Below, in pieces: positions 22,599 to 38,606 of a stretch of 64,000 nucleotides of DNA. The DNA lies in assembly GCF_014203355.1 (NCBI RefSeq), contig NZ_JACHIR010000001.1, forward strand, positions 8,000,038 through 8,064,037, in the 5' to 3' direction. Under the pieces are notes generated by a model. The model had not been told where the DNA came from and made no database searches. It saw nothing but the letters and a program-made list of their open reading frames with translations. The stretch's first letter is position 1. Each line of letters starts with the position of its first letter. The DNA comes from Kutzneria kofuensis. GTDB taxonomy: Bacteria; Actinomycetota; Actinomycetes; Mycobacteriales; Pseudonocardiaceae. The position numbers and the translations under genes were made by a program.

Positions 22599-23651
22599 CT
22601 AAGGACTAATAACGGGCTCGCCCGTGCGTCGAGGGGTGCTGTCCCGCAGGACGACGTTCGTCGGCAGCCACACGACCTCGCCCTCGCCGCCTGCGGCCAG
22701 GGCGAGGTCGATCGCGTGCAGGCCCATGGCCCGCATGGGCACCTGGACGGTGGTCAGCGCCGGGTGCACGTCGGTGGCGGCGCTGATGTCGTCGAAGCCC
22801 GCGACGGCCAGATCGTGCCCGGGCACCAGGTTCGCGTCGCGCAGCGCTCGCATGGCACCTATCGCCATCACGTCGTTGACCGCGAACGCCAGTTCGACGT
22901 CGTCCGGGCCACGGTCGAGCAGGGTGGTCATGGCGGCGTGGCCGCCGTCCTCGGTGAAGTCGGCTTCGACCACGAACCGGTCGGCCACCGTGATCCCGGT
23001 GCGGGCGAGGCCGGCGACGAACCCCTCGAGGCGGTCACGGGAGGTGCGAAGGACGTCCGGCCCGCGCAGCACGGCGAAGCGCCGGTACCCGTGGGCGACC
23101 AGCGCGGCCGCGAGGTCCTCGGCGGCTTTGCGGTTGTCGATCGTGACGGTGCCGTACGGCAGGCCCGGCTGGCTCACCACGGCCACGCGCCCGCCCGCGG
23201 CCTCGTACGCGCGCAGTTCCTCGGCCAGGGCCTCCTGATCCTCGCCGATCCGGCTGCCGGCGAGAATGATCGCGTGTGGCCGGTGGCCCCGCAGTGTCGA
23301 GACGATCTCCAGCTCCCGGTCCGGCGACCGGTCGGTGACGGCCATGGTCACGGTCAGGCCGGCGGCCTCGGCGCCCTCGACGGCCCCGGCGGCGATGGCG
23401 GAGAAGTACGGGTCGGCGATGTCGTGCACGATCAGGGCGACCATCTTCGTCGACCCCCTGGCGGTGGCCTGCGCCGACAGGTTCGGCGTGTACCCGAGCT
23501 TCGCGGCCGCCCGCAGCACGGAAGCGAGCTTGTCCGCGCTGACGTTGCGGGTGCTGCCGTTGAGCGCACGCGACGCCGTGGCCGGGGAGACGCCGGCCTC
23601 GGCTGCGACATCCCGCAGGGTGGGGGAGGAGCCGGTGCGCTGCTCGGTCAT
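22599..23651 (-). CDS. LacI-family sugar-responsive repressor
   Basis: This 350-residue LacI/GalR protein has an N-terminal HTH at about 10-38 (TLRDVAAEAGVSPATASRAL) and a hinge near 50-60 (AKLGYTPNLSAQATARG). The periplasmic-binding-like effector domain follows, with ALIVHDIADPYFSAIAAG and FAVNDVMAIGAMRAL. The start is the ATG at 23651; upstream extension is not conserved in type. It is divergent from the parallel beta-helix gene across a 110-base gap that holds a near-palindromic operator. The same operator recurs at the importer promoter (26518), so this protein probably represses its own gene, the beta-helix gene and the importer operon. Confidence 0.92.
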   Translation of the reverse strand: MTEQRTGSSPTLRDVAAEAGVSPATASRALNGSTRNVSADKLASVLRAAAKLGYTPNLSAQATARGSTKMVALIVHDIADPYFSAIAAGAVEGAEAAGLTVTMAVTDRSPDRELEIVSTLRGHRPHAIILAGSRIGEDQEALAEELRAYEAAGGRVAVVSQPGLPYGTVTIDNRKAAEDLAAALVAHGYRRFAVLRGPDVLRTSRDRLEGFVAGLARTGITVADRFVVEADFTEDGGHAAMTTLLDRGPDDVELAFAVNDVMAIGAMRALRDANLVPGHDLAVAGFDDISAATDVHPALTTVQVPMRAMGLHAIDLALAAGGEGEVVWLPTNVVLRDSTPRRTGEPVISP

Positions 23652-23712
23652 GACGGGACGAACTCGTTTCACTCGATCCGCGCGGTTCTTGTGGAAGTCG
23701 ACGATAGGTGGT

Positions 23713-23726
23713 GGAATACGTTTTCC
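23713..23726. promoter_or_regulatory. LacI operator between divergent genes
   Basis: GGAATACGTTTTCC is a near-perfect dyad with an ACGT centre. It differs at one position from 26518-26531 (GGAATGCGTTTTCC). It sits in the intergenic region of the LacI gene and the beta-helix protein gene, 36 bases before the latter's start. Confidence 0.7.
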
Positions 23727-23761
23727 GACAGTGGCCCCCACGATGAGGTGAGGAGCACCAC

Positions 23762-25432
23762 GTGTTACGCGTCTTCAGGCAAGCTGGCCCCGGATTGCTC
23801 GCGGCGGCAGTGCTCGTCGCCTCGGCACAGGTCGTTCTCGCCGCACCGGCCGACGGCGTCACGGCCGGGGTGAGTTACTACGTGGATGCCTCGCAGGGCG
23901 ACGACAACGCTTCCGGTGTGGACAGCACGCACGCGTGGCGCAGCCTCGCGCGGGTCAACCGGGCGACCTTCCACCCCGGGGACCAGATCCTGTTGCGGGC
24001 CGGCGGCCGGTGGAGCGGCCAGCTGTGGCCGAAGGGCTCCGGCGCGTCGGGTGCGCCCGTCACCATCGACCGGTACGGCGACGGCGCGAACCCCCGGATC
24101 GACGGCGGTGGCCTGGTCGACGACACCGTGCGCCTGTCCGACCAGGAGTTCTGGACGGTCCGGCACCTGGAGGTGACCAACCAGGCGCCCGCGACGGGCA
24201 CGCCGGGGGCGAACCTCAAGGACCTGCGAGGCATCCACGTCACCGGTGACAACGGCCGGCAGCTGCACGGCTTCGTCGTCGACGGCGTCAACGTCCACGA
24301 CGTCACCGGCGAGGTGAACTGGATCGGTGGCAGCACATCGGACGACGCGTCCGGAATCCACTTCAAGACGGGCTGGGACCGGTCGAAGCGGACCGGCGGC
24401 ATCGTCTTCGACACCACGGTGGCGAACGTCGGCGCGCCCACGGCGACGCCGACGGTGCTCGACGACGTCACCATCCAGAACTCGGTCATCGTCAACACGT
24501 CGTTCGCCGGCATCTCGATCAAGCAGTACACCGGTGACGGCCCCGGCGCGGTGGCCACCGGCTGGGGGACCCGCACGAGCCCGACCGACGCCAGGTTCAC
24601 CCCGCACAACAACGTGGTCATCCGGGGCAACTACATCAGCCAGGCGGGCACCGCCTACGGGTGCAACGGTGTGTACGTCACCGACGTCCGGCACGCGGTC
24701 GTCGAGCACAACGTCATCTACCGGGCCGGCACGTCCGGCATCGAGACCTACTTCGCCGACGATGTGACCATCCAGTCCAACGAGGTCGCCGAGACCACCC
24801 AGAAGGCGAAGGGCGCGGACTCCAACGGCATCGACGCCGACAAGGGCACCACCAAGGTCGTCGTCCAGTACAACTGGTCCCACGGCAACGGCGACGGCAT
24901 CCTGCTGTGCCAGTTCTCGTTCGGTGACGTCGTGCTGCGCTACAACGCGATCGCGGGCAACACCAGGTACCAGGTCTACCTGCACTCCGACAAGGCCGCC
25001 AGGGCCAAGGTGCACAACAACACGATCTACGACGACCGCAGCAAGTACGCGATCTACGGCTACGGCACGTCCCTCACCTCGTCGTACGACATCACGGACA
25101 ACATCATCTACTCCAAGGTGGCCGGGGCGTCCCTCACCACCAGTTCGACGGTCCGCTACGACAACAACCTGTACGGCGGCGCTTCCCTGCCGGTGCCCTC
25201 CGGTGACACGCACGCCGTCCGCGCGGATCCGCAGTTCACGGGGTCGCCGGACTGGACGGTGGGCACGCCGGACGCCGGGCCGCGGCTCACCGGGGCGTAC
25301 GGTCTGCGGGTCCGTTCCGGCTCTCCTGCCATCAACAGGGGAGTCGCGATCAGCGACAACGGTGGCCGTGACTACGCGGGAACACCGCTGTACAACGGGA
25401 AGCCGGACATCGGCGCGTTCGAAGTGGGGTAG
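23762..25432 (+). CDS. Secreted right-handed parallel beta-helix protein (PbH1), putative polysaccharide lyase/hydrolase
   Basis: This 556-residue exported protein starts at GTG 23762, after AGGAG at 23750. The signal peptide runs to about residue 28 (VLVASAQVVLAAPA). The mature chain starts YYVDASQGDDNASG, a common lead-in of secreted parallel beta-helix enzymes. It then shows many PbH1-type rungs such as VTIQNSVIVNTSFAGI, VVIRGNYISQAG and VVEHNVIYRAGTSGIE. The C-terminus has the SPAINRGVA and PDIGAFE closing motif typical of these proteins. Pectate lyases, alginate lyases and several glycosidases share the fold. The catalytic residues cannot be placed, so the substrate is unknown; the operon suggests a plant or algal polysaccharide. 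It is two bases upstream of the second LacI gene. Confidence 0.8.
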   Translation: MLRVFRQAGPGLLAAAVLVASAQVVLAAPADGVTAGVSYYVDASQGDDNASGVDSTHAWRSLARVNRATFHPGDQILLRAGGRWSGQLWPKGSGASGAPVTIDRYGDGANPRIDGGGLVDDTVRLSDQEFWTVRHLEVTNQAPATGTPGANLKDLRGIHVTGDNGRQLHGFVVDGVNVHDVTGEVNWIGGSTSDDASGIHFKTGWDRSKRTGGIVFDTTVANVGAPTATPTVLDDVTIQNSVIVNTSFAGISIKQYTGDGPGAVATGWGTRTSPTDARFTPHNNVVIRGNYISQAGTAYGCNGVYVTDVRHAVVEHNVIYRAGTSGIETYFADDVTIQSNEVAETTQKAKGADSNGIDADKGTTKVVVQYNWSHGNGDGILLCQFSFGDVVLRYNAIAGNTRYQVYLHSDKAARAKVHNNTIYDDRSKYAIYGYGTSLTSSYDITDNIIYSKVAGASLTTSSTVRYDNNLYGGASLPVPSGDTHAVRADPQFTGSPDWTVGTPDAGPRLTGAYGLRVRSGSPAINRGVAISDNGGRDYAGTPLYNGKPDIGAFEVG

Positions 25433-25434
25433 CG

Positions 25435-26478
25435 ATGCCGCATCCGGCACGGGACACCGTGACGCTGCACGACGTGGCGGCCGCCGCGGGAGTGTCGCTC
25501 GCGACCGCGTCACGCGTGCTGGGGGGCAGTTCCCGGACCGTCGCGCCGGAGTTCAGGGAGCGTGTCCTGACCGCGGCCGAGCGGCTGCGCTACACGGCGG
25601 ACGCGTCGGCGCGGGCGATGCGGGGAATGAGTGACTCGCTGGCCCTCGTGGCCGACGATCTCACCACGCCGTCGATGGCCATCGTGGTGTCCGCGATGGA
25701 GCGGGCGGCCAGCACCACCGGCACGTTCGTCACCGTCTCGGCGACCCGCGGCGATCCCGAACGCCAGCTGGAGACCATCCGCCGCGTTCGGGCGCTGCGA
25801 CCGCGGGCGCTGGTGCTCACCTCCGGCCGGGTCGACGCCGACGCCCTGTCCGGCCGGCTGCTCGCGGAGCTGCGCGCCTACGAGCTCGACGGGGGACGGG
25901 TGGTGATCGTCGGCGACACCGACCTGCCGTTCCATTCGGTCGGTTTCGACAATCGCCAGGCCGCTCGGCGACTCGGCCACTTCGTGGCCGAGTCGGGGCA
26001 CCGGCGGGTCGCGATCATCGCGGGCGCTCGCGGCCAGGCCGCCCCCGAGACCCGGACCGCCGGGTTCGTCGACGGCCTTCGGGCCGGCGGCGTCGCCGCG
26101 GCCGACGTCCGGATCGTGCACTGCGCGGTGAGCCGGGAGGGCGGATTCGAGGCTGTGCAACGGCTTGTCGCCGAAGGGTTGCGGGACACCGATGCCGTCC
26201 TGGCGGTCAACGACCTGCTCGCCGTGGGCGCGCTCCGCGCCCTGCGCGAGGCCGGGGTGGCCGTGCCGGACGACGTGTCGCTGACCGGCTTCGACGACAT
26301 CGGGCTGGCGGTCAACGTGACGCCGAGGCTCACCACGGTGGCGCTGCCGCTCGCGTACGTCGGGACCGAGGCGATCCGGCTCGCGCTCGGCGAACCCGGC
26401 GCGGTCACCCACGTGACCGTCGAAGGGCGTCTGGTGGTTCGCGACAGCACCGGACAGCGAGCTGTCGAAGCCGGTTGA
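25435..26478 (+). CDS. Second LacI-family repressor
   Basis: This 347-residue LacI/GalR protein has HTH residues about 8-36 (TVTLHDVAAAAGVSLATASR), hinge ERLRYTADASARAMRG and an effector domain with LALVADDLTTPSMAI and VLAVNDLLAVGALRAL. Its start is two bases after the stop of the beta-helix gene, so the two are coupled. The importer operon begins 77 bases downstream behind its own promoter. Having two LacI genes flanking one secreted enzyme and sharing one operator type is unusual; they may be paralogues with different inducers, or one may act on targets elsewhere. Which of the two binds the 14-bp sites cannot be told. Confidence 0.92.
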   Translation: MPHPARDTVTLHDVAAAAGVSLATASRVLGGSSRTVAPEFRERVLTAAERLRYTADASARAMRGMSDSLALVADDLTTPSMAIVVSAMERAASTTGTFVTVSATRGDPERQLETIRRVRALRPRALVLTSGRVDADALSGRLLAELRAYELDGGRVVIVGDTDLPFHSVGFDNRQAARRLGHFVAESGHRRVAIIAGARGQAAPETRTAGFVDGLRAGGVAAADVRIVHCAVSREGGFEAVQRLVAEGLRDTDAVLAVNDLLAVGALRALREAGVAVPDDVSLTGFDDIGLAVNVTPRLTTVALPLAYVGTEAIRLALGEPGAVTHVTVEGRLVVRDSTGQRAVEAG

Positions 26479-26485
26479 TGCGCTC

Positions 26486-26531
26486 TTGACGGTGTGGGTG
26501 TTGCCGGCCACACTCCTGGAATGCGTTTTCC
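26486..26531 (+). promoter_or_regulatory. Importer-operon promoter with LacI operator over the start point
   Basis: TTGACG (26486-26491) and CACACT (26509-26514) are 17 bases apart. The dyad GGAATGCGTTTTCC (26518-26531) covers the predicted start of transcription near 26521. The arrangement fits repression by one of the two adjacent LacI proteins. The -10 box is weak. Confidence 0.6.
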
Positions 26532-26555
26532 GAGTCTCGCAGAAGAGGGGGCGGC

Positions 26556-27479
26556 ATGAGCACCCTCGGCGAACTCAGGGCGTTGCGCCGGCGCGGCGCG
26601 CGGTCCACGAAGCGCGACAACAAGGCCGCCTTCTGGTTCCTGCTGCCCTGGTTCGCCGGACTGCTGTTCATCACCCTCGGGCCGATCGCGGCGTCGTTCG
26701 GTCTCGGCTTCACCAAGTACAACCTGATCCAGCCGCCCCGGTTCATCGGGCTGGGCAACTTCGCCCGGATCCTCACCGACGAGCGGCTGCACAACGCGCT
26801 GGGCGTGACCTTCACCTACGTCCTGGTGTCCGTGCCCCTGCAGCTGGCGTGCGCGCTCGGCGTCGCCATGCTGCTGGACCGGGGCATGCGCGGGCTGGCC
26901 TTCTACCGCTCGGCGTTCTACCTGCCGTCGCTGCTCGGCACGAGTGTGGCGATCGCGGTGCTGTGGCGGCAGATCTTCGGCACCGAGGGGCTGGTCAACC
27001 AGCTGCTCGGCCTGGTGGGCATCACCGGGCAGGGGTGGATCTCCGACCCGAGTTCCGCGCTGTCCACGCTCATCGTGCTCAACGTGTGGACGTTCGGCGC
27101 GCCGATGGTCATCTTCCTGGCCGGCCTGCGGCAGATCCCCACGGTCTACTACGAGGCCGCGGCCATCGACGGCGCCGGCCGGTGGACCAGGTTCCGGCGG
27201 ATCACGCTGCCGCTGCTGTCCCCGATCATCTTCTTCAACCTGGTGCTGCAGGTGATCCACGCGTTCCAGTCGTTCACCCAGGCCTTCGTGGTGTCCGGCG
27301 GCACCGGTGGCCCGGCCGACTCCACCATGGTCTACACGCTGTACCTGTACCAGCAGGGCTTCGGGCGCTTCGACATGGGCTACGCCTCGGCGCTGGCCTG
27401 GTTCCTGCTGCTGATCATCGCCGGAATCACCGGAATCAACTTCTGGGCGGCCAAGCACTGGGTGTTCTATGACGACTGA
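26556..27479 (+). CDS. Sugar ABC importer permease (MalF/UgpA type)
   Basis: This 307-residue integral membrane subunit of a CUT1-family carbohydrate importer has six helices. A basic start (RALRRRGARSTKRDN) leads to helix one (FWFLLPWFAGLLFITLGPIA). The EAA loop that contacts the ATPase is YYEAAAIDGAGRWTRFRRIT near residue 200. The ribosome-binding site is AGAGGGGG before the ATG. It overlaps the second permease gene by 11 bases. No ATPase gene is present; CUT1 importers of actinomycetes often use the shared MsiK ATPase. Confidence 0.93.
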   Translation: MSTLGELRALRRRGARSTKRDNKAAFWFLLPWFAGLLFITLGPIAASFGLGFTKYNLIQPPRFIGLGNFARILTDERLHNALGVTFTYVLVSVPLQLACALGVAMLLDRGMRGLAFYRSAFYLPSLLGTSVAIAVLWRQIFGTEGLVNQLLGLVGITGQGWISDPSSALSTLIVLNVWTFGAPMVIFLAGLRQIPTVYYEAAAIDGAGRWTRFRRITLPLLSPIIFFNLVLQVIHAFQSFTQAFVVSGGTGGPADSTMVYTLYLYQQGFGRFDMGYASALAWFLLLIIAGITGINFWAAKHWVFYDD

Positions 27480-28380
27480 CATCAGCAGCCCGCCGGCGAC
27501 CGTTGTCCCGCCGTCGCGGCGGGAGCGGCCGCGGGCGCGTCGGCCGACCGTCCGAAGTGTCCTGCGGACCGCCGCCCGGCACGTCGGCCTGACGCTGTTC
27601 GCGGTGGTCATGCTGTACCCGGTGTTGTGGATGGTCGTCAGCTCGCTGCGGCCGAACGACGAGATCTTCCGCAGTCCCGGCCTCGCGCTGGACCACCTGC
27701 GGATCCAGAACTACGCCGACGGCTGGACCGCGCTGGCGTCGCCGTTCGGGCACTACCTGGTCAACTCGGCGATCGTCGTGCTCGGCTGCATCGTCGGCAA
27801 CCTGGTGTCGTGCTCCATGGCGGCCTACGCCTTCGCGCGCCTGGAGTTCACCGGAAAGCGCTGGTGGTTCGGCATCATGCTGGGCACCATCATGCTGCCG
27901 ATCCACGTGATCATCGTGCCGCAGTACATCCTGTTCTCGCAGCTGGGCTGGGTGAACACGTACCTGCCGCTGATCGTCCCCAAGCTGCTGGCCACCGACG
28001 CGTTCTTCGTCTTCCTGATGGTGCAGTTCATCCGCGGCCTGCCGCGCGAGCTGGACGAGGCGGCGCGCATCGACGGCTGCGGCCACCCCCGGATCTTCCT
28101 GCGCGTCATCCTGCCGCTGATGAAGCCGGCGCTGGCCACCACGACGATCTTCACGTTCATCTGGACCTGGAACGACTTCTTCAGCCAGCTGATCTACCTG
28201 ACGGACCCGGACAAGTACACCGTTCCCGTCGCCCTGCGCTCGTTCGTCGACGCCACCGCGACCACCTCGTGGGGCTCGCTGTTCGCGATGAGCGTGCTGT
28301 CGCTGCTCCCGATCTTCCTGGCTTTCCTCGTCGGACAGCGCTACCTCGTCCGGGGGATCGCCACGACCGGGGGCAGGTAG
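27469..28380 (+). CDS. Sugar ABC importer permease (MalG/UgpE type)
   Basis: This is the 303-residue partner permease. It has a long basic N-terminal tail (PPSRRERPRARRPTVRS), helix one (LFAVVMLYPVLWMVVSSL), the UgpE/MalG-type segment IMLGTIMLPIHVIIVPQY and the EAA loop ELDEAARIDGCGHPRIFLRV. It is co-translated with the preceding permease, as the reading frames overlap. It forms the translocation pore with it. The last helix is followed by a short RYLVRGIATTGG tail. Confidence 0.93.
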   Translation: MTTDISSPPATVVPPSRRERPRARRPTVRSVLRTAARHVGLTLFAVVMLYPVLWMVVSSLRPNDEIFRSPGLALDHLRIQNYADGWTALASPFGHYLVNSAIVVLGCIVGNLVSCSMAAYAFARLEFTGKRWWFGIMLGTIMLPIHVIIVPQYILFSQLGWVNTYLPLIVPKLLATDAFFVFLMVQFIRGLPRELDEAARIDGCGHPRIFLRVILPLMKPALATTTIFTFIWTWNDFFSQLIYLTDPDKYTVPVALRSFVDATATTSWGSLFAMSVLSLLPIFLAFLVGQRYLVRGIATTGGR

Positions 28381-28401
28381 CCCCGGAAAGGAACCAAGGC
28401 C

Positions 28402-29706
28402 ATGCGCTCGAGACACGTCCACCGCGTCGCCTGGGCGGTCCTGCTGACGGTGATCGCGTCCCTGCTGGTCGCCTGCTCGTCCGGACCGGGCGGGGACGAC
28501 GAGCTGTCGGCCGGGCCGGTGACGCTGCGCTTCACCTGGTGGGGCGCCGACGACCGGCACAAGCGGACCCAGCAGGTGATCGACCTGTTCCAGAAGAAGC
28601 ACCCGAACATCACCGTGCGCGGGGAGTTCAAGGACTGGAACAGCTACTGGGACAGCCTCGCCACCACCGTCGCGGCCAACGACGCCCCGGACGTCATCCA
28701 GATGGACGAGCTCTATCTCGCTTCGTACGCCCAGCGCGGCGCGCTGCTGGACCTCAACACCGAGAAGAAGTACCTGAACACCGGCGACTTCGACGCCAAG
28801 GCACTGGCCACCGGCGCCGTCGACGGCCAGCAGTACGGGCTGCCCGTCGGGTTGGGCTCGTACGCGCTGGTGGCCAACACGGACCTGCTGGCCAAGTACA
28901 ACATCCCGCTTCCCGACGACAACACCTGGTCGTGGGACGATCTGAAGAAGATCGGGGAGCAGGTGTCGAAGGCCGGCGGCGGCTCGGTGTGGGGTGTGCA
29001 GTCCCCGGGCTTCAGTGACACCGGCGGCCTGCAGATCTGGGCCCGCCAGGCGGGCGGGTCGCTGTTCGACGACAAGGGCAAGGTCACCATCCCGCCCGAC
29101 GCCCTCACCCGCTACTTCTCGTACATCCTCGACCTGGCCCGCGACGGCGCCGCGCCGCCGCCCTCGATCACCATCGAGAAGGCCGACGGCACTCTCAACC
29201 AGACGGCGGTCGCCACCAACACCGCCGCGTTCGGCCTGTGCTGGAACACCCAGCTGACCGCGCTGTCCGCGGCCAGCGGCCAGAAGCTGAAGCTGCTCAA
29301 GCTGCCCGGTGAGGCCAAGGCGCACGCCGAGTACTACAAGCCGTCGATGTTCTGGTCGGTCTCGGCCCGGTCCAAGCATCCGGCGGAAGCCGCGCTGCTG
29401 CTGGACTTCCTGGCCAACGACGCGGACGCGGCGAAGGTCATGCTGACCGACCGCGGCGTTCCGGCCAACCTGAAGATCCGCGCGGCCATCGACGGCAGCC
29501 TGACGGACACCGACAAGGCGGCGGCCGACTACCTGAACCGGATCACGGTCAGCGACCCGCCCCGGGTCACCCCCAACGGCGCGAGCACCATCGAGACGAT
29601 CCTCAAGCGGCACGTCGAGGACGTGTTGTTCGACCGGGCCAAGCCGGACCAGGCCGCCAAGGCGTTCATCACCGAGCTGCAGGCCGATGTCGACGCGGCC
29701 AGGTAG
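28402..29706 (+). CDS. Sugar-binding lipoprotein of the ABC importer
   Basis: This 434-residue extracellular solute-binding protein of family 1 has a type II signal with lipobox LLVAC (lipidated Cys 25), then a short flexible linker. The binding domain starts TLRFTWWGADDRHKRTQQVI, the standard opening of CUT1 binding proteins, and includes PDVIQMDELYLASYAQRG. Ligands of this branch are usually oligosaccharides. The ribosome-binding site AAAGGAA precedes the ATG. It follows the permeases by 21 bases and precedes the oxidoreductase gene, so substrate capture and the first catabolic step are expressed together. Confidence 0.92.
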   Translation: MRSRHVHRVAWAVLLTVIASLLVACSSGPGGDDELSAGPVTLRFTWWGADDRHKRTQQVIDLFQKKHPNITVRGEFKDWNSYWDSLATTVAANDAPDVIQMDELYLASYAQRGALLDLNTEKKYLNTGDFDAKALATGAVDGQQYGLPVGLGSYALVANTDLLAKYNIPLPDDNTWSWDDLKKIGEQVSKAGGGSVWGVQSPGFSDTGGLQIWARQAGGSLFDDKGKVTIPPDALTRYFSYILDLARDGAAPPPSITIEKADGTLNQTAVATNTAAFGLCWNTQLTALSAASGQKLKLLKLPGEAKAHAEYYKPSMFWSVSARSKHPAEAALLLDFLANDADAAKVMLTDRGVPANLKIRAAIDGSLTDTDKAAADYLNRITVSDPPRVTPNGASTIETILKRHVEDVLFDRAKPDQAAKAFITELQADVDAAR

Positions 29707-29731
29707 CTCCCCATCGGACGGAAGGAGCGCC

Positions 29732-30838
29732 ATGCCGGCGCGGACCCACCGCACCGCGATCGTCGGGACCGGGGCGATCGCGAACGCCCACGCGGCGGCC
29801 GTGCGTGCGGCCGGCGATCGGGCAGACCTGGTCGCGGTCGTGGACATCGACCGCGACCGTGCCCGCGCGTTCGCCGACGAGCACGGTGTGCCCGGCGTCT
29901 ACCCCAGCCTGACCGCGCTGCTGGCGGAAGAGGCCGTGGACCTGGTGCACCTGTGCACCCCGCCGCGGCAGCACGCGCCACTGGCGATCGAGTGCCTGGA
30001 CGCGGGGGTAACCGTGCTGGTGGAGAAGCCACCGGCGCTGTCCCTGGCCGAGATGGACGAACTGGTGGCGGCGGAGCGCCGGTCCAACGCCCACGTGGCC
30101 ACCGTCTTCCAGCACCGCTTCGGATCGGCCGCTGTGCGGCTGCGCCGGTTGACCGCGGCCGAACAGCTGGGCCGGCCGCTGCTGGCCACCTGCGCCACGC
30201 TGTGGTACCGGGACGACGACTACTTCGCCGTGCCGTGGCGGGGATCGTGGGACAGCGAGGGTGGCGGACCCACGATGGGGCACGGCATCCACCAGTTCGA
30301 CCTGCTGCTGTCCGTGCTCGGTCCGTGGACGGAGGTCCGCGCGCTGGCCGCGCGGCAGGCCCGTGCCGTGCGGACCGAGGACGTGTCGATGGCGCTGGTG
30401 ACCTTCGCGAGCGGGGCGGTCGCCACGGTCGTCAACTCCGTGGTCTCACCGAGGCAGACCTCCGCGTTGAGGTTCGACTACGAGCGCGCCACGGTGGAGG
30501 TGGAACACCTGTACGGGTACACGGAAGCGGACTGGACGGTGACCCCGGTGGAGGGCCACGAGGACGTCCTGTCGGGGTGGGCCGACGCCGAGCCGAGCCC
30601 GCCCAGCGGCCACCAATGGCAGATCCGGGCGGTTCTCGACGCGCTCGACCGCGGCGATCCGCCCCCGGTGACGTGTGCGGACGCGCGGAACACCATGGAG
30701 TTCATCGCCGCGCTCTACGCGTCCGCCTTCACCGGCCAGCCGGTCTATTGTGGACAGATCACCCCGGACAACCCGTTCTACCGGCGGATGGACGGGACGG
30801 GGGCGCCATGGGCGGACGTCATGGAGGCAGGCCGATGA
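29732..30838 (+). CDS. Gfo/Idh/MocA-family NAD(P)-dependent dehydrogenase
   Basis: This 368-residue protein starts at ATG 29732 (GGAAGGAG upstream). The N-terminal Rossmann domain has GTGAIANAHAAAV, Asp-rich VVDIDRDRARAFA (NAD preference) and the EKPPALSLAEM motif (catalytic-site Lys) near residue 100. The C-terminal alpha/beta domain has GGGPTMGHGIHQFDLL with the conserved His region. Such enzymes oxidise or epimerise sugars, inositols or sugar acids. In importer operons they usually act first on the internalised sugar. The stop overlaps the ATG of the next gene. Confidence 0.92.
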   Translation: MPARTHRTAIVGTGAIANAHAAAVRAAGDRADLVAVVDIDRDRARAFADEHGVPGVYPSLTALLAEEAVDLVHLCTPPRQHAPLAIECLDAGVTVLVEKPPALSLAEMDELVAAERRSNAHVATVFQHRFGSAAVRLRRLTAAEQLGRPLLATCATLWYRDDDYFAVPWRGSWDSEGGGPTMGHGIHQFDLLLSVLGPWTEVRALAARQARAVRTEDVSMALVTFASGAVATVVNSVVSPRQTSALRFDYERATVEVEHLYGYTEADWTVTPVEGHEDVLSGWADAEPSPPSGHQWQIRAVLDALDRGDPPPVTCADARNTMEFIAALYASAFTGQPVYCGQITPDNPFYRRMDGTGAPWADVMEAGR

Positions 30839-31722
30839 AGCCGACGATCGTCCAGGCCGCCGACTTCCTGGCCGTGTGCGCCGGGGATGTGGAGATCTTC
30901 CGCTACGTGTGCCGGCCGGAGGTGTCGCCGTTCGAGGGGCCGAAGCCCTACCTGCACCCGGTGCGGACACTGGCGGGCGATGTCGTGACGGCCTATCGGC
31001 CGCATGACCACCGGTGGCACAAGGGAATCCAGATGACCGCCACGGACGTGTCCGGGCAGAACTTCTGGGGTGGCGTGACCTACGTGCGCGACCAGGGTTA
31101 CGTCGAACTGCCGAACGTCGGCACCATGCGGCACCAGGATCTCGTCGTCGCCGACACGCCGTCGGACCGCGCCGGCTTCACGGAAAGGCTGGCTTGGCAC
31201 ACCCAGGCCGGCGAGCACTGGGTGGACGAGGTGCGGGAGTTCACCGTCCAGGACATCGACGGCGAGTCGTGGGCGCTGCGGTTCACCACCGAGCTGACGA
31301 ACGTGCGCGGCGAGCCGCTGGTCTTCGGCAGCCCGACGACCAGCGGGCGGGAACTGGCCGGCTACACCGGGCTGTTCTGGCGCGGGCCGAGGGCGTTCAC
31401 CGACGGCGAGATCATCGCGGCGGACGGCCAGGGCGGCCCGGAGATGATGGGCCAAGAAGCGGCGTGGCTGGCCTATGTCGGGCACCACGACGAGGTGGAC
31501 CGCTCGTCCACCCTGGTGTTCATCGACCATCCCGACAACGGGGTCACGCGGTGGTTCGTGCGCGACACCCCCTTCCCGGCGGTGAACCCCTCGTTCGCCT
31601 TCTTCGACAAGCTCGACCTCGCGGCGGGGGAGCGCCTGCGGCTGCGTTACCGCCTCGTCGTCGCGGACGGCGCGTGGGACCGCGCCCGCATCGAGTCCTA
31701 TGTGGAGGATCATCCGTGGTGA
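30835..31722 (+). CDS. PmoA-like (DUF6807) family protein
   Basis: This 295-residue cytosolic protein belongs to a family labelled PmoA-like after a misleading methane-oxygenase annotation; no membrane helices occur, so it is not a monooxygenase subunit. The conserved His-rich motif RPHDHRWHKGIQ at about 44-55, with FWGGVTY, is the family hallmark. Later segments include GSPTTSGRELAGYTGLFWRG and VFIDHPDN. Members occur next to Gfo/Idh/MocA dehydrogenases and sugar importers, but the reaction is not known; a sugar-modifying or binding role with a metal at the His cluster is plausible. ATGA overlaps the preceding stop and its own stop overlaps the following cupin gene. Confidence 0.8.
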   Translation: MKPTIVQAADFLAVCAGDVEIFRYVCRPEVSPFEGPKPYLHPVRTLAGDVVTAYRPHDHRWHKGIQMTATDVSGQNFWGGVTYVRDQGYVELPNVGTMRHQDLVVADTPSDRAGFTERLAWHTQAGEHWVDEVREFTVQDIDGESWALRFTTELTNVRGEPLVFGSPTTSGRELAGYTGLFWRGPRAFTDGEIIAADGQGGPEMMGQEAAWLAYVGHHDEVDRSSTLVFIDHPDNGVTRWFVRDTPFPAVNPSFAFFDKLDLAAGERLRLRYRLVVADGAWDRARIESYVEDHPW

Positions 31723-32450
31723 CGCCGTTGCCGGGCGCGGTCGGTGTGTCGGGGCTGCAGGTCTACGACTGGCCGACGCCGGACGGGGTGTGCGGTGGAT
31801 CGCCGCACGTCCACCTGACCTGTGCCGAGTGCTACGTGGTCGTCGACGGCGTCGGCCGGGTGCAGACGCTGACCCGTCGCGGCTTCGCCGAGACGCCGCT
31901 GCGCGCCGGGACGGTGGCCTGGTTCACGCCGGGCACGATCCACCGCCTGGTCAACCAGAACGGCTTGCGGATCGTGGTGATCATGCAGAACAGCGGCCTG
32001 CCGGAAGCCGGTGACGCGGTGTTCACGTTCCCGGCCGAGACGCTCGCGGACCCGAGTGCGTACGCCGAAGCCGCGTCACTGGCCGGCCGCGACGGCGTGG
32101 ACGCCGGTGAGCAGGCCGCCCGGCGGCGGCGCGACCTCGCGATCGAGGGATTCATCGCACTGCGCAAGCGGATCGACGCGGGGGACCACGGTGCGCTCAC
32201 CGAGTTCTACCGGGCGGCTGTCCGGTTGAAACATGGCTCGTTCGCCGACTGGGAACAGCGCTGGTGGGCCGGTGCGCTGGCTGCGGCGCACGAAACGGGA
32301 CAGCACCTGACCAGGCTGGGCGACGGGGACCTCACCCACCTCACCGAGGCCGACATCCATGTCCTGGACCCACCGGCCGCGCAGCGACTCGGCATGTGCG
32401 GCCGCCTCGACGTCTACGATCCCTCGTCCGGAACGTCCCCGCACGACTGA
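31716..32450 (+). CDS. Cupin-domain protein, last gene of the importer operon
   Basis: The protein has about 244 residues. GTG 31716 or the adjacent GTG at 31719 is the start, with GGAGG at 31704. The N-terminal half is a cupin barrel: GSPHVHLTCAECYVVVDG supplies a His-His-Glu-type set and RAGTVAWFTPGTIHRLVNQN supplies the second motif with a His. The C-terminal half (about 130-244) is helical and not recognised. Cupins of this layout bind sugars or catalyse isomerisation or epimerisation; the exact reaction is not known. It overlaps the PmoA-like gene and is followed by the terminator. Confidence 0.8.
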   Translation: MVTPLPGAVGVSGLQVYDWPTPDGVCGGSPHVHLTCAECYVVVDGVGRVQTLTRRGFAETPLRAGTVAWFTPGTIHRLVNQNGLRIVVIMQNSGLPEAGDAVFTFPAETLADPSAYAEAASLAGRDGVDAGEQAARRRRDLAIEGFIALRKRIDAGDHGALTEFYRAAVRLKHGSFADWEQRWWAGALAAAHETGQHLTRLGDGDLTHLTEADIHVLDPPAAQRLGMCGRLDVYDPSSGTSPHD

Positions 32451-32517: not shown

Positions 32518-33531
32518 TTACCGCAGGCCCCAGGCCAGGGCGACGCGGCTCGCGCCGCTGGCGTTGGTGACGCTCAGGGACAGCGCGGTGCCGCTGCCGT
32601 GCAGCGCGGTGAGCGAGTAGGTGTCGCCGGTGCGCAGGCCCGGCCAGTACACCGAACCCATGTGCAGCTCACGCAGCCGGGTCGTCACCGACTGGATGTA
32701 GGCGATCTCGTTGGAGCCGTCGACCGGCCCGTTGTAGTTCAGCCCGGTGGTCATGCTCGCGCCGAACTCGTCCAGGATCGTGCGGTACGCGCAGGTCCCG
32801 AGGCGCTGGTCGAAGTCGGCGACCCACTGCTTCGGGTCGGTCCACGTGCTGTGCCAGAAGCCGTAGAAGTGCAGCGCGAGACGGGTGCCGTTGAGCCGGT
32901 TGTCCGCGCACACCGGCTTGACGTCGTCGGCGTAGCCGGTGCCGTCGACGATCACCCGCGAGCGCGGGACGTTCGGGTGGGCCGACAGCCAGGAGGCGAC
33001 GATGCCGGTCCACTCCTGGCTGGTGTAGCCGAACGGCTCGTTCATCGGCTCGAAGTACACGTGGCCGTTGCTCGCGTACCTCGCCGTGATGCGCTGCCAC
33101 ATCGCGGTGAACGCGGCCGTGTCGTCGATCCGGCCGTCCTTGGCGTTCGGCGCCTCCCAGTAGCCCAGGATCACCTTGAAGCCCTTGGCGGTGGCCGCGT
33201 CGACGGCGCCGGTGTAGGAGTTCCAGAACCGGCCGTTCACGGTGGCCGGGTTCACCGGTAGTCGCACGGTGTTGGCCCCGAGCTCGGCCTGGAACTGGCC
33301 GATCACGGCACTGGCCTTGGCATAGGTGGTGGCGTAGCTGTCCGCTGTGGACAGACCGGACGGCACGACCTCGTCGGAGGCGTAGTTGTCGCGCGGATCG
33401 GCCCAGTTCACGCCGCGGAACTGGCTGATGGTGGCGGCGTCGGCGGCCGGGGCGGTGACGGCGGCCAGGCCCGCCACGCCCACGGCGCAGCAGACCGCCG
33501 CGACGAGCTTGCGGATGGGCGAAGAGTTCAT
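32518..33531 (-). CDS. Secreted GH5-family glycosidase
   Basis: The protein has 337 residues from ATG 33531, preceded by AGGAG. Residues 1-33 are the signal peptide (AAVTAPAADAA). The single catalytic domain has QFRGVNWADPRDN at the start, acid/base Glu 165 in FEPMNEPFG and nucleophile Glu 255 in TILDEFGA, as in clan GH-A family 5. The ending GSVYWPGLRTGDTYSLT with a short beta tail is shared with the GH5-lectin protein at 44908, so the two are paralogues. The subfamily and substrate are not certain; genes for a GH35 beta-galactosidase and an importer in the same operon suggest a galactose-substituted glucan or mannan. It starts 11 bases after the GH35 gene. Confidence 0.88.
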   Translation of the reverse strand: MNSSPIRKLVAAVCCAVGVAGLAAVTAPAADAATISQFRGVNWADPRDNYASDEVVPSGLSTADSYATTYAKASAVIGQFQAELGANTVRLPVNPATVNGRFWNSYTGAVDAATAKGFKVILGYWEAPNAKDGRIDDTAAFTAMWQRITARYASNGHVYFEPMNEPFGYTSQEWTGIVASWLSAHPNVPRSRVIVDGTGYADDVKPVCADNRLNGTRLALHFYGFWHSTWTDPKQWVADFDQRLGTCAYRTILDEFGASMTTGLNYNGPVDGSNEIAYIQSVTTRLRELHMGSVYWPGLRTGDTYSLTALHGSGTALSLSVTNASGASRVALAWGLR

Positions 33532-33542
33532 CGTTGATCTCC

Positions 33543-35294
33543 TCAGGCTTCGGTGTGGCCGAGCAGCGCGTGCGGTGCGCAGCGGACCACGGGGTCGGGC
33601 ATCGTGTCGAGTTCGAGCACGACGACGTCGTTGGCGCCGGCCCGGACCACGGGGGCGGGCACGTAGAGCGTTCGCTGCGGGCCGCGGCGCCAGTAGCGGC
33701 CGAGCAGGAACCCGTTGATCCACACCAGTCCCTTGCCCCAGACCGCGGTGTCGAGGAACAGGTCCGTCGACTCGGTGACCGTGAGCCGGCCCCGCACGAG
33801 CACAGGGCCGGCGAGCGGCCCGTTGGCCTCGGCGCCGTCGGTTGTCCCGCGATACCGGTCCGGCAGCGTGGCAGTGTCGATCGGCCGCACCTCCCAGTCG
33901 GTCAGCATCCGGCCGTGCAGGTGGACGCCGCCGATGACGCCCTTGGGCTCGCCGATCCGGGGCCCGTAGTCGACGCGACCGAGGTCTTCGATCAGCAGCG
34001 TCAACTCACCGGCGGTCAGGGGCAGCGCGATAGCCTGGTCGTGGTGCTCGCGCAGGAGTGTGCCGAGCCGCACGCCGTCGAGGAAAACCGTGACACGGTC
34101 CCGGATCTCGCCGAAGACGAGCACTCCCGGGCCCTCGCCGTCGATCCGGGTGCGGGCCAGCGCCAGCTGCGGAATCGGTGCGAGGTCGTCGAAAGCGGGC
34201 AGTTGGTCGTGTGTCTCCCACGCGCCCGGGGTTTCCAGCAGCGAGATCGGTTCGTGCAGGGAGGTGGACGGGGTCGGCAGGGGCCGCGCGGGTGGCGGCA
34301 CGCTGTCGGGAACCTTGTGGTAGCGCGCGATGACGTCCCGGAACGCGTGGTACTTCGCGGTCGGGTTGCCGGCCTCGTCCAGCGGCGCGTCGTAGTCGTA
34401 GGACGTGACGATCGGCTGGTAGGTGCCCTTGTCGTTGGCGCCGTTGGTGAGGCCGAAGTTGGTGCCGCCGTGGAACATGTAGATGTTGACCGACGCCCCG
34501 GCCGCCAGCAGCGCGTCCAGTTCCGCCGCGGACTCCTCGACGGAGGTCGTGTGGTGGTGCGCGCCCCAGTGGTCGAACCAGCCGCACCAGAACTCGCTGC
34601 ACATGAGCGGGCCGGTCGGCTGCTGGGCGCGCAGGACGGCCAGCCGCTCGGCGGCGCGAGACCCGAACGACGCCGTGCGGTGCAGCCCGTCGATGCTGCC
34701 GGCCGCCAGCATGTCGTCCAGCGGCTGGTCCACTGTGGTCAGTGGCACCGTGATGCCCGCCGCGCGGGTGTGCCGGGTGAGTTCGGCCAGGTAGCGCTGG
34801 TCGCTGCCGTACGCCCCGTACTCGTTCTCGATCTGGACCAGCAGGACCGGGCCGCCCCGGTCGACCTGATGCGGCACGACCACGCGGTACACCTGGTCCA
34901 GGTACTCGCGAACGGCGTCGAGGTACCTGGGCTCGTAGGCGCGGACGCCGACGTCGGGATCGCGGAGCAGCCACGTCGGCAACCCGCCGTTGTCCCACTC
35001 GGCGCAGATGTACGGGCCCGGCCGCACGATGGCGTGCATGCCCGCCTCGGCGACCAGCCGGAGGAACCGGTCCAGGTCCAGCCCGCCGTCGAGGTCGAAC
35101 GTGCCGCGTTCGGGCGCGTGGGCGTTCCACGGCACGTACGTCTCGACGGTGTTCAGACCCATCCGGCGGGCCTTGTCGATCCGGTCCGCCCACAGGTCCG
35201 GGTGCACCCGGAAGTAGTGCAGCGCACCGGAGAGGATCCGGAACGGCCGGCCGTCGAGCAGGAAGTCGGCGTCGCCGATCGCGAACTCGGCCAT
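33543..35294 (-). CDS. Intracellular GH35 beta-galactosidase
   Basis: This 583-residue protein starts with MAEFAIGDADFLLDGRP and has no signal peptide, so it acts in the cytoplasm. GH35 motifs are ETYVPWNAHAP, RPGPYICAEWDNGGLP, QIENEYG (acid/base Glu, about 158) and SEFWCGWFDHWG (nucleophile Glu, about 234). The YMFHGGTNFG motif follows. The C-terminal beta-rich domains (about 400-583) contain GVWVNG-like KGLVWINGFLLGRYW, a jelly-roll typical of the family. The enzyme would release galactose from oligosaccharides brought in by the co-transcribed importer. The start has an AGGCAC-type leader only; the gene is 46 bases from the binding-protein gene. Confidence 0.94.
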   Translation of the reverse strand: MAEFAIGDADFLLDGRPFRILSGALHYFRVHPDLWADRIDKARRMGLNTVETYVPWNAHAPERGTFDLDGGLDLDRFLRLVAEAGMHAIVRPGPYICAEWDNGGLPTWLLRDPDVGVRAYEPRYLDAVREYLDQVYRVVVPHQVDRGGPVLLVQIENEYGAYGSDQRYLAELTRHTRAAGITVPLTTVDQPLDDMLAAGSIDGLHRTASFGSRAAERLAVLRAQQPTGPLMCSEFWCGWFDHWGAHHHTTSVEESAAELDALLAAGASVNIYMFHGGTNFGLTNGANDKGTYQPIVTSYDYDAPLDEAGNPTAKYHAFRDVIARYHKVPDSVPPPARPLPTPSTSLHEPISLLETPGAWETHDQLPAFDDLAPIPQLALARTRIDGEGPGVLVFGEIRDRVTVFLDGVRLGTLLREHHDQAIALPLTAGELTLLIEDLGRVDYGPRIGEPKGVIGGVHLHGRMLTDWEVRPIDTATLPDRYRGTTDGAEANGPLAGPVLVRGRLTVTESTDLFLDTAVWGKGLVWINGFLLGRYWRRGPQRTLYVPAPVVRAGANDVVVLELDTMPDPVVRCAPHALLGHTEA

Positions 35295-35340
35295 GCGTGG
35301 TCGTGCCTCCAGGTCGCGGAGCTGTTCGAGTGGGGCCAGG

Positions 35341-36672
35341 TCAGCCCGCGCTGACGGTGAAGCCCTGCTGGTTGCCGTAGTCGACGAGCGCGGACTGCCA
35401 CGCCTTCAGGCCGCCCTCGATGGGCGTGCCGTTGAGGTAGGACTTGCCGACGGTGTCGTTGTAGATGCTGTTGGCGTAGAGCTGGTAGGGCAGGTAGCTC
35501 CAGCCCTTGGCCACCGCGCCGCTGGCCGCGGTGAGCACCTGGTTGATCTTCTGGCCGCCGAAGTACGGGTCGGTGGCGTCCAGGAACGCCGGCGCGTTCA
35601 AATCGGCGGTGGTGGAGGGGAAGCCGCCGCTGGCGATGAAGGACTTGATGCCGTTGCCGTGGTTGAGCCAGCGCACGAACGCCGCGGCCAGCGTCGGGTT
35701 CTGGCTCTGCTTGAGCACCGACTGGGCGCTGCCGCCGTTCTCCGCGCTGACCGGCTGGCCGTCGTAGGTCGGCATCGGCGCGACCGCCCACTTGCCGCTG
35801 CCCGCCGCCACCGAGGACTTGAACACGCCGGGCATCCATGCGCCGGTGACCAGGGTGGCGATCGTGCCGTCACCGAGCTCGCGGTACCAGTCGTCGCTCC
35901 AGCCCTTGACCGTGGACAGCAGCTTGCCCTGGACCAGCTGGTCCCAGACCTTGGTCCACTTCTGCGCGCCGGCGTCGTTCAGGTTGATCTTGACGTTGCG
36001 ACCGTCTGTGCTGAACGGGTGGCCGCCCGCCTGCCAGATCATGCTCGTGGTGAAGCCGGCGTCGCCGTTGTCGGAGGTGATGAACTTGGTCGGGTCGGCG
36101 GCGTGCAGCTTCTTGGCCGCGTCCAGGTACTCGTCCCAGGTCTTCGGCACGGCAATGCCGTACTTGTCGAAGTCCTCCTTGTTGTAGAACAGCGCCATCG
36201 GGCCGGAGTCCTGCGGCAGCCCGTACAGTCCGCTGCCGACGTTGACGCTGGTCCAGGTGGAGGGGGTGTAGTCCTTCTGGAACGTGCCGAAGCCGTACTG
36301 GTTGAGATCGACCAGCGAACCGGGCAGCGCGAACTGCGGCAGCGCCTGGTACTCGATCTGGGCGACGTCCGGACCACCGGAGCCGGCCTTCACCGCGTTC
36401 TGCAGCTTGGTGTACTCGTCGTTGCCGGTGCCGGCGTTGACCAGGTTGACCTTGACGTTCGGGTACTCCTGCTCGAAGGCGGCGACCTGCGCCTTGGCCG
36501 ACGGGGTCCAGGTCCAGTAGGTGATCGTGCCGCCGGCCTTGAGCGCGGCGTCGACGGAGTCCTGGGTGCCGTTGGCCTTGGCGGCGTCCTGGCCGGGCGA
36601 GCCGCACGCGGTGGCGAGCGCGGCGGCCAGGGCCAGTGCGGCGACTGCTCTGTGGCGGCGGAGTGGTGCCAT
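35341..36672 (-). CDS. Sugar-binding lipoprotein of the second importer
   Basis: This 443-residue extracellular solute-binding protein starts at ATG 36672 (AAGGAAACTCCG leader). The lipobox is LATAC with Cys 23. The N-terminal lobe begins TITYWTWTPSAKAQVAAFEQ, typical of CUT1 proteins, and VAQIEYQALPQFA forms the core. Aromatic residues (WTWT, WSDDW, WMPG) likely line an oligosaccharide site. It is co-transcribed after two permeases and before GH35 and GH5. The operon's LacI repressor is divergent. Confidence 0.93.
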   Translation of the reverse strand: MAPLRRHRAVAALALAAALATACGSPGQDAAKANGTQDSVDAALKAGGTITYWTWTPSAKAQVAAFEQEYPNVKVNLVNAGTGNDEYTKLQNAVKAGSGGPDVAQIEYQALPQFALPGSLVDLNQYGFGTFQKDYTPSTWTSVNVGSGLYGLPQDSGPMALFYNKEDFDKYGIAVPKTWDEYLDAAKKLHAADPTKFITSDNGDAGFTTSMIWQAGGHPFSTDGRNVKINLNDAGAQKWTKVWDQLVQGKLLSTVKGWSDDWYRELGDGTIATLVTGAWMPGVFKSSVAAGSGKWAVAPMPTYDGQPVSAENGGSAQSVLKQSQNPTLAAAFVRWLNHGNGIKSFIASGGFPSTTADLNAPAFLDATDPYFGGQKINQVLTAASGAVAKGWSYLPYQLYANSIYNDTVGKSYLNGTPIEGGLKAWQSALVDYGNQQGFTVSAG

Positions 36673-36701
36673 CGGAGTTTCCTTCGCGACGTGGTGACGG
36701 G

Positions 36702-37574
36702 TTACTGCTTGACGCTTCCCGCGGTCAGACCGGACTGCCAGAACCGTTGCAGGAAAAGGAAAGCGATCACGAGCGGGATGATGGTGAGCAGCGAACCGGT
36801 GATCACCAGGTGGTAGATCGGCTGCGCCCCGGCGCCGATCGCCTGCGCGCTCCACTGGTTGAGCCCGACCGTGAGCGGGAACCAGTTCGGGTCGCTGAGC
36901 ATGATCAGCGGAAGGAAGTAGTTGTTCCAGGTGGACACCACCGCGAACAGCGCCACCGTCACGATGCCGGGGACCAGCTGCCGCAGCGTCACCGCGAGGA
37001 AGATACGGATCTCGCCGGCGCCGTCGATGCGGGCCGCCTCCATCATCTCGTCCGGGATCGCGTCGGTGGCGTACACCCAGATCAGGTAGAGGCCGAACGG
37101 GCTGATCAGGGACGGGATGATCACCGCCAGCGGCGTGTCGGTCAGCCCGAGCCGGCTGAACAACAGGAAGGTCGGCACCGCCAGCGCGGTGGCGGGCACC
37201 GCGATCGCGCCGAGCACCACGGCGAACACCGCCTGCCGACCGCGGAACCGGTACTTGGCCAGGCCGTAGCCGGCCGCCGTGGCCAGGATCGTCGCGCCGC
37301 CCGCGCCGACCACGACGTAGAGCAGGGTGTTGCCCAGCCAGCGCAGGAAGACCCCGTTGTCGTAGGTGAACGTCTGGCGGATGTTGTCGAACAGGGCGAA
37401 GACGCCGCCGAAGGACAGTCCGGGCGTGGACAGCAGGTCGGGCTGGGTCTTGGTGGCGCTGATCACCAGCCACACCAACGGAATCAGCGTGTAGAGGAGG
37501 TAGAGCGACATCACCGCGGTCAGCGTGCGGGAGCGGCGCGGTCGCAGCACCGAGATCGAGCTCGCCACCGTCAC
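36702..37574 (-). CDS. Sugar ABC importer permease (MalG type), second importer
   Basis: This 290-residue permease has the GTG start at 37574 overlapping the stop of the upstream permease (GTGA). It carries six helices, an N-terminal basic segment (RPRRSRTL), AIAVPATALAVPTFLLFSRL and the EAA loop EMMEAARIDGAGEIRIFLAV. It forms the importer pore with the other permease. No ATPase gene is nearby. Confidence 0.92.
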   Translation of the reverse strand: MTVASSISVLRPRRSRTLTAVMSLYLLYTLIPLVWLVISATKTQPDLLSTPGLSFGGVFALFDNIRQTFTYDNGVFLRWLGNTLLYVVVGAGGATILATAAGYGLAKYRFRGRQAVFAVVLGAIAVPATALAVPTFLLFSRLGLTDTPLAVIIPSLISPFGLYLIWVYATDAIPDEMMEAARIDGAGEIRIFLAVTLRQLVPGIVTVALFAVVSTWNNYFLPLIMLSDPNWFPLTVGLNQWSAQAIGAGAQPIYHLVITGSLLTIIPLVIAFLFLQRFWQSGLTAGSVKQ

Positions 37575-38488: not shown

Positions 38489-38529
38489 CGTCCCTCCGGT
38501 TCCGATGCCGAATCGTCGAGTCGGCGTGA

Positions 38530-38579
38530 ATGTTTACGTCAACATGGGTGCCGGGAGGCTAACTTGTTGACGTAAACAT
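38530..38579. promoter_or_regulatory. Twin LacI operators as a perfect 15-bp inverted repeat
   Basis: ATGTTTACGTCAACA at 38530-38544 is repeated in inverted form at 38565-38579, with 20 bases between. Each arm is itself a near-palindrome (TGTT-K-ACGT-M-AACA), so these are two LacI operators about 34 bp centre to centre. They lie between the divergent LacI and importer genes and should repress both. A TTGACG hexamer inside each operator may serve as a -35 element, so binding would hide the promoter. Confidence 0.82.
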
Positions 38580-38606
38580 GTCCATAGGTGCAACCGAGGA
38601 GACAGC

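Follow-up and report, generated by a model that had tools for sequence, protein, structure and literature searches.

A conserved dehydrogenase–DUF6807–cupin gene unit in a candidate plant polysaccharide catabolic operon of Kutzneria kofuensis

In this study, we analysed a stretch of 64,000 nucleotides from the soil actinobacterium Kutzneria kofuensis (NCBI RefSeq assembly GCF_014203355.1, contig NZ_JACHIR010000001.1, positions 8,000,038 to 8,064,037; hereafter the window), in which positions 23762-32450 had been proposed from the sequence as a candidate catabolic locus. Our analysis confirmed the locus as an operon on the + strand, which ends in three genes for a Gfo/Idh/MocA dehydrogenase, a DUF6807 protein and a cupin, here called the triad. 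The triad is a real, conserved unit and not a chance arrangement. We tentatively believe, at close to an even chance, that the locus is a LacI-controlled system for the uptake and redox-assisted cleavage of plant hemicellulose or pectin fragments.

Conservation of the triad

The original prediction had named beforehand the result that would overturn it, namely a triad that is not conserved as a unit, and the triad proved to be conserved. In the 80 loci of named organisms closest to the window DUF6807 protein, the dehydrogenase was the next gene upstream of DUF6807 in 74 and the cupin was the next gene downstream in 69, with truncations at contig ends scored as misses. Among the six loci without a dehydrogenase, L213 ends at a contig edge and L211 shows a dehydrogenase fragment. 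A same-strand dehydrogenase within three genes was found for 155 of 190 DUF6807 proteins derived from overlapping genome samples (adjacent in 147), compared with 34 of 760 control genes lying more than six genes away from any DUF6807. In a nonredundant DUF6807 set, from which pTC2 and archaeal sequences were excluded, the dehydrogenase and cupin were found for 26/39 and 11/39, respectively. The cupin accompanies 105 of the 190 DUF6807 proteins and belongs to one branch.

Of 150 genomes from the host's own family, 63 carried DUF6807. When the same 150 genomes were searched with the cupin, 43 carried it. Comparison by hand showed 32 of 43 full-length places no more than 2 kb away from a DUF6807 match, including one match that is a remnant. 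The idea that the cupin is strictly tied to DUF6807 was rejected, because 9 of the 43 full-length places stand apart from it (three genomes of one genus and six of another). In the three (L265-L267), the cupin stands alone between flanking genes that in L123 and L128 enclose the triad, so loss can begin with the dehydrogenase and DUF6807. In the six (L268-L273), the cupin is next to a LacI gene and not near DUF6807, and five of these loci also hold an ABC (ATP-binding cassette) ATPase-type gene together with a further Gfo/Idh/MocA gene, a setting which hints that the cupin acts on the products of such dehydrogenases. At L274:5743-7848 (G082), DUF6807 has shrunk to a 68-residue remnant flanked by a dehydrogenase and a cupin of normal length.

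Our search was centred on the host's own phylum, and the DUF6807 genes seen outside the actinobacteria were on an archaeal plasmid and in a Caldilineaceae metagenome bin (L222), where neither the dehydrogenase nor the cupin adjoins DUF6807. The archaeon Halomontanus rarus has the dehydrogenase–DUF6807 pair too. Plasmid pTC2 of Paenarthrobacter aurescens TC1 (L262), which was typed as conjugative, carries a near-complete locus with two LacI genes, the importer, the triad and the beta-helix gene. The genome of K. kofuensis itself (10.4 Mb, five contigs) has one more DUF6807 copy (L003:6354-10287), in a run with another Gfo/Idh/MocA gene and a 665-residue protein for which no family was identified; no cupin adjoins this copy.

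Protein families and the candidate reaction

The DUF6807 protein matched PF14100 with 286.5 bits (cut-off 27) over profile positions 4-269 of 270. The His-rich RPHDHRWHKG motif, which had been noticed in the prediction, was found at residues 55-64 and holds a constant Asp-His-x-Trp-His site (D58-H59-x-W-H62). The structure model is a galactose-mutarotase-like supersandwich (predicted local distance difference test score, pLDDT, 93.5). The prediction had also called this protein PmoA-like, a label that turned out to be an annotation name, since the Pfam scan matched DUF6807 alone. Identity with PmoA (particulate methane monooxygenase) was rejected, DUF6807 being the sole match at E <=0.001. Kinship by sequence with polysaccharide lyase (PL) family 26 was rejected as well; the profile comparison gave nothing, and the protein shares the fold of the PL26 exo-rhamnogalacturonan lyase (PDB 5xqg) and differs from it in having no detectable sequence relationship. 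A PL26-type protein is encoded elsewhere in the same genome (G000:C2:150110-151153). The retrieved passages of the literature mention DUF6807 next to new beta-galactosidase genes (PMC5342196), as a methane gene label and as the final number of a list, and these passages report no test of the protein. No report of the triad was found in the literature searched, outside which most subscription journals fell.

Gfo/Idh/MocA proteins consist of a Rossmann domain and a C-terminal domain with EKP and H-x-x-D motifs. In the window protein, E98, K99, P100, H187 and D190 were invariant in 21 aligned rows, which places it in this family. Its matches include DgpA and the glucuronide-3-dehydrogenase P2B11 (PDB 8tdi), so that by sequence it resembles the glycoside 3-dehydrogenases. 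Metal cupins bind their ion through HxH(x)4E and a later His. The window cupin gave weak Pfam matches (Cupin_1 23.6 bits, cut-off 22; Cupin_2 27.0 bits, just missing the cut-off of 27.2), and H33, E38 and H76 were invariant over 26 rows with H31 nearly so, which marks it as a metal cupin. It resembles sugar ketoisomerases.

Partial texts of PMC7676230 and PMC10628242 describe C3 oxidation, elimination, hydration and reduction as a known route to glycosidic-bond cleavage. The triad supplies fitting parts for it, in that its dehydrogenase is from a suitable family, DUF6807 joins a fold of the sugar-C1 type to the constant site, and the cupin is of the keto-sugar type. We infer the chemical steps, the protein responsible for each step and the sugar. 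Oligosaccharides would be freed by the secreted GH136-like beta-helix protein, or in relatives by enzymes of glycoside hydrolase (GH) families GH10, GH30 and GH62, or by PL11 or GH115, and would enter via the ABC importer. The dehydrogenase would oxidise the terminal sugar, most likely glucuronic or 4-O-methylglucuronic acid, at C3; DUF6807 would eliminate the C1 leaving group through the D58-H59-x-W-H62 site; and the metal cupin would hydrate or tautomerise the keto-enol product. The keto product could be reduced again by the dehydrogenase, and the net effect would be hydrolysis without a classical glycosidase.

Comparable systems show that this chemistry is already known, and what is new here is the parts and the substrate setting. 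For example, the levoglucosan pathway LgdA-LgdB1-LgdB2-LgdC, as described in the portion of PMC7676230 consulted, likewise begins with oxidation by a dehydrogenase and leaves elimination and hydration to co-clustered partners. It differs in that the partners in the window are DUF6807 and a cupin, the operon has no second dehydrogenase and the setting is polysaccharide import. Similarly, DgpA with the C-glycoside deglycosidases and the O-glycoside eliminase OGE carry out 3-oxidation followed by elimination, whereas, in the part of PMC10628242 consulted, their substrates are glycosides of plant aglycones and their eliminases are other proteins. P2B11 shares the dehydrogenase family and the 3-oxidation of glucuronides. 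Its pathway is said to be of broad specificity, and we know of no DUF6807 protein or such a cupin among its parts. Eliminases of the Lgd/OGE type are xylose-isomerase-like TIM barrels; the Pfam scan found no known family of this type in the window operon, and DUF6807 would fill the role.

Another explanation is that the dehydrogenase works by itself as an NAD-dependent hydrolase of the GH109 or GH4 kind, which would carry out oxidation, elimination, hydration and reduction within a single active site, with DUF6807 and the cupin processing the freed sugar. NAD-dependent glycosidases do exist among the Gfo/Idh/MocA proteins. The two families are mentioned in the consulted part of PMC10628242. 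However, the related DgpA requires partner enzymes for cleavage, according to an excerpt of PMC10539306, and the adjacency of dehydrogenase and DUF6807 reported above (147/190) also speaks against a hydrolase working alone. We consider this explanation improbable.

Genomic company and candidate substrates

In the 80 operons, a GH30 cluster occurred in 27 and a GH10/GH62 cluster in 16, all among those 27, where the GH30, GH10 and GH62 labels stand for one or two tested members per cluster; a tested GH30 protein matched solved GH30 xylanases at 2.7e-96. The typical order in Streptomyces was binding protein, permease, permease, GH30, GH10, dehydrogenase, DUF6807, cupin and GH62, and the annotation of Streptomyces sp. 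NBC_01001 shows that order too. In nine Lentzea loci, GH2 was nearby in six and PL11 in two. One operon ends with a homologue of L-rhamnose-alpha-1,4-D-glucuronate lyase and PL11, and the Amycolatopsis bullii operon, in which the cupin is missing, runs on into GDSL esterases, GH115 and GH28. At least 26 of the 80 loci had no such plant-polysaccharide company. By family assignment, plant hemicellulose and pectin are the common thread of these neighbours, among which enzymes related to uronic acids recur. The original prediction had listed pectin, alginate and glucuronoxylan as substrates to try; xylan enzymes were commonest and pectin-type enzymes occurred in some loci, and no alginate enzyme was found among the proteins scanned.

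A hydrophobic N-terminus was seen in 16/27 GH30, 39/43 GH10/62, 11/124 dehydrogenase, 2/173 DUF6807 and 0/107 cupin proteins, rough figures from a crude hydrophobicity test on predicted starts. In the xylan operons L174, L182 and L185, whose N-termini were inspected, the GH genes look secreted, so the triad would be the only apparently cytosolic enzymes of these operons. The oxidative or redox-assisted route suggested in the prediction is still the best reading.

The same redox cassette might act on neutral sugars (xylose, arabinose or galactose units) instead of uronic acids. The company of GH10, GH30, GH62, GH3, GH2 and GH43, which varies between loci, would suit this. Against it, uronate-linked enzymes recur (GH115, the rhamnose-glucuronate lyase and PL11), and a substrate is assigned to three relatives of the dehydrogenase, of which one carries the name glucuronide dehydrogenase and another is what we take to be a uronate dehydrogenase. 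We give neutral sugars little likelihood.

Next, the alpha-glucuronidase families GH67 and GH115 were considered. In the 27 genomes with a GH30-type triad operon, GH67 was found in 1, GH115 in 2 and neither in 24. In Streptomyces, GH67 or GH115 was present in 0/14 genomes with the triad in a xylan operon and in 17/26 with a lone triad (Fisher p 3.8e-5). The lone set consists of 26 loci in which neither a transporter nor a sugar-enzyme cluster could be recognised around DUF6807; L226, L234 and L242 in it have no adjacent cupin, L205, L212, L215, L234 and L235 are on short contigs so that their lone status is less sure, and L193, L213, L237 and L239 were left out for a contig edge, a missing dehydrogenase or origin from a metagenome bin. 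This pattern is no more than suggestive of a triad that replaces an alpha-glucuronidase. We hold it rather doubtful that DUF6807 is a new keto-glycoside eliminase class on a mutarotase fold and that the triad is an alternative three-enzyme alpha-glucuronidase, which would take (4-O-methyl)glucuronic acid off imported xylan fragments in actinobacteria without GH67 and GH115.

Several observations weigh against the alpha-glucuronidase role. The 14 Streptomyces with xylan operons form one clade of the DUF6807 tree, which slightly lowered the probability that we give to this role and to redox-assisted cleavage. In the host's own family, 12 of 16 genomes with GH67 also carry DUF6807, and because of this co-occurrence the exclusion of GH67 was rejected as a general proof. 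Some of the genomes are drafts, and completeness is unstated for 64 genomes of the GH67/GH115 counts. The main rival is a monosaccharide pathway, in which the beta-helix enzyme or GH115 frees the sugar outside the cell and the sugar is then imported, without cleavage of a glycosidic bond inside. DUF6807 would then serve as a mutarotase or epimerase, the cupin as an isomerase and the dehydrogenase as an ordinary sugar (acid) dehydrogenase. The mutarotase-like fold of DUF6807 and the likeness of the cupin to sugar isomerases agree with this, GH115, which would free glucuronate outside, is present both in the window and in the operon of A. bullii, and the best curated matches of the permeases are mixed and below cut-off, including glycerol-phosphate and glucose importers. 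On the other hand, free glucuronate would need another source in the 24 genomes with neither GH67 nor GH115, and endo-acting xylanases such as those of these operons are expected from family knowledge to yield oligosaccharides. We therefore regard the monosaccharide pathway, including the roles that it gives to the three proteins, as unlikely on the whole, and keep redox-assisted cleavage as the favoured explanation.

Locus layout, control and the beta-helix protein

The features of the locus are collected in Table 1. The frames of the dehydrogenase and DUF6807 overlap by 4 bases and those of DUF6807 and the cupin by 7 bases, as the prediction had said of them; the two permease genes overlap as well, and permease 2 and the binding protein do not.

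Table 1. Features of the locus and its border in window coordinates
Feature	Positions	Strand	Basis and remarks
Divergent LacI-family regulator	22599..23741	-	Family scan; likely start 23651; borders the locus
LacI-type operator-like palindrome GGAATACGTTTTCC	23713..23726	+	Palindrome scan; upstream of beta-helix gene
Secreted right-handed beta-helix protein, GH136-like	23762..25432	+	Candidate catalytic Asp353 and Asp360
LacI-family regulator	25435..26478	+	Pfam scan
Promoter-like TTGACG-17-CACACT	26486..26514	+	By-eye reading; directly precedes operator
Second operator-like site GGAATGCGTTTTCC	26518..26531	+	Palindrome scan; upstream of first permease gene
ABC sugar permease 1	26556..27479	+	Pfam scan (BPD_transp_1)
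ABC sugar permease 2	27469..28380	+	Pfam scan (BPD_transp_1)
Extracellular solute (sugar) binding protein	28402..29706	+	Pfam scan (SBP_bac_1)
Gfo/Idh/MocA dehydrogenase	29732..30838	+	ATG start 29732, alternative start 29687; GFO_IDH_MocA 1.6e-28
DUF6807 protein, galactose-mutarotase-like supersandwich	30835..31722	+	Pfam 3e-85 and structure model
Metal-type cupin with helical C-terminal extension	31716..32450	+	Weak Pfam matches, alignment, model

The GGAATRCGTTTTCC sites are the putative operator pair of the locus. Within the window, sequences with at most two mismatches were found at these two sites only, giving 3 matches over both strands against 0.22 expected, and none of 100 shuffles reached three. 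Both sites also occur in A. bullii (L163) and Kibdelosporangium banguiense (L164). At the same threshold, 11 of the 14 relatives in a first scan, including pTC2, have a site ahead of their first permease, and so do 10/10 of a second set (eight Lentzea loci, L124 and L117), from which L112, the window's own copy, was left out. No such site was found before the first permease in L061, L138 and L156, all three of which have a beta-helix homologue. Judging from these sites, the beta-helix gene and the importer–triad transcript of close relatives probably form a single regulon with LacI-type control.

The beta-helix protein has a signal peptide seen by eye and a Beta_helix match at 3e-12 (Pfam scan of the window proteins), and among solved structures 7v6m (1.2e-23) and the lacto-N-biosidase 6kqs (6.5e-13) match it best. 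In ErLnb136, the acid/base and nucleophile of GH136 are D568 and D575, and activity requires an associated GH136I domain or subunit (both from the consulted part of PMC7335108). These two residues align with Asp353 and Asp360 of the window protein, with an inferred two-residue offset in chain numbering, and the pair is kept in 6/6 aligned rows (the window and five homologues). It is also kept in the pTC2 homologue, which is 56% identical over 555 columns of a pairwise alignment. The window protein thus shares with the GH136 lacto-N-biosidase (PDB 6kqs; partial text of PMC7335108) the beta-helix and an aspartate pair seven residues apart, and differs in that the substrate tryptophan W548 corresponds to Tyr330, in a register inferred from the alignment. 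It scored 57.1 bits against the cut-off of 2500 of the LnbX NCBIfam equivalog. A polysaccharide lyase is not favoured, the best relatives being GH136 glycosidases and both catalytic aspartates being kept in the window protein; by homology, a glycosidase is likelier than a lyase. The gene was present at six other loci (L061, L138, L156, L163, L164 and pTC2) and absent from the nine loci that stand nearest to the window in DUF6807 score, and because of this distribution we regard the protein as accessory. The earlier proposal that it makes the imported product is kept in our best explanation as a putative role.

The prediction had stated that the operon imports a sugar and has no recognisable intracellular glycosidase. 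The Pfam scan matched no glycosidase family and no importer ATPase family inside the operon, with the qualification that a GH35 gene without an obvious signal peptide by eye (33543-35294, - strand) lies about 1 kb downstream with its own transporter genes. It belongs to a separate - strand sugar operon at 33543-39635 (GH35, binding protein, two permeases), beyond which lies a LacI gene (+). GH5-like proteins at 32518-33531 and 44908-46335 begin alike (SQFRGVNWAD), and the second has ricin-type lectin repeats. About 17 kb before the operon, the window holds GH62 (833-2056), GH115 (2073-5186) and a GDSL esterase (5295-6596); this GH115 is the sole one found in the genome, in which GH67 was not found.

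DUF6807 is a family with no reaction assigned in the literature searched and is named in annotation after an unrelated enzyme. In xylan operons it has a 3-dehydrogenase-like protein on one side and a ketoisomerase-like cupin on the other, a placement that allows a concrete and cheap biochemical test, and the occurrence of the triad in the xylan-degrading operons of some relatives gives a short list of substrates for it. If our explanation is true, it could account for the way in which some actinobacteria that degrade xylan but lack GH67 and GH115 complete the degradation.

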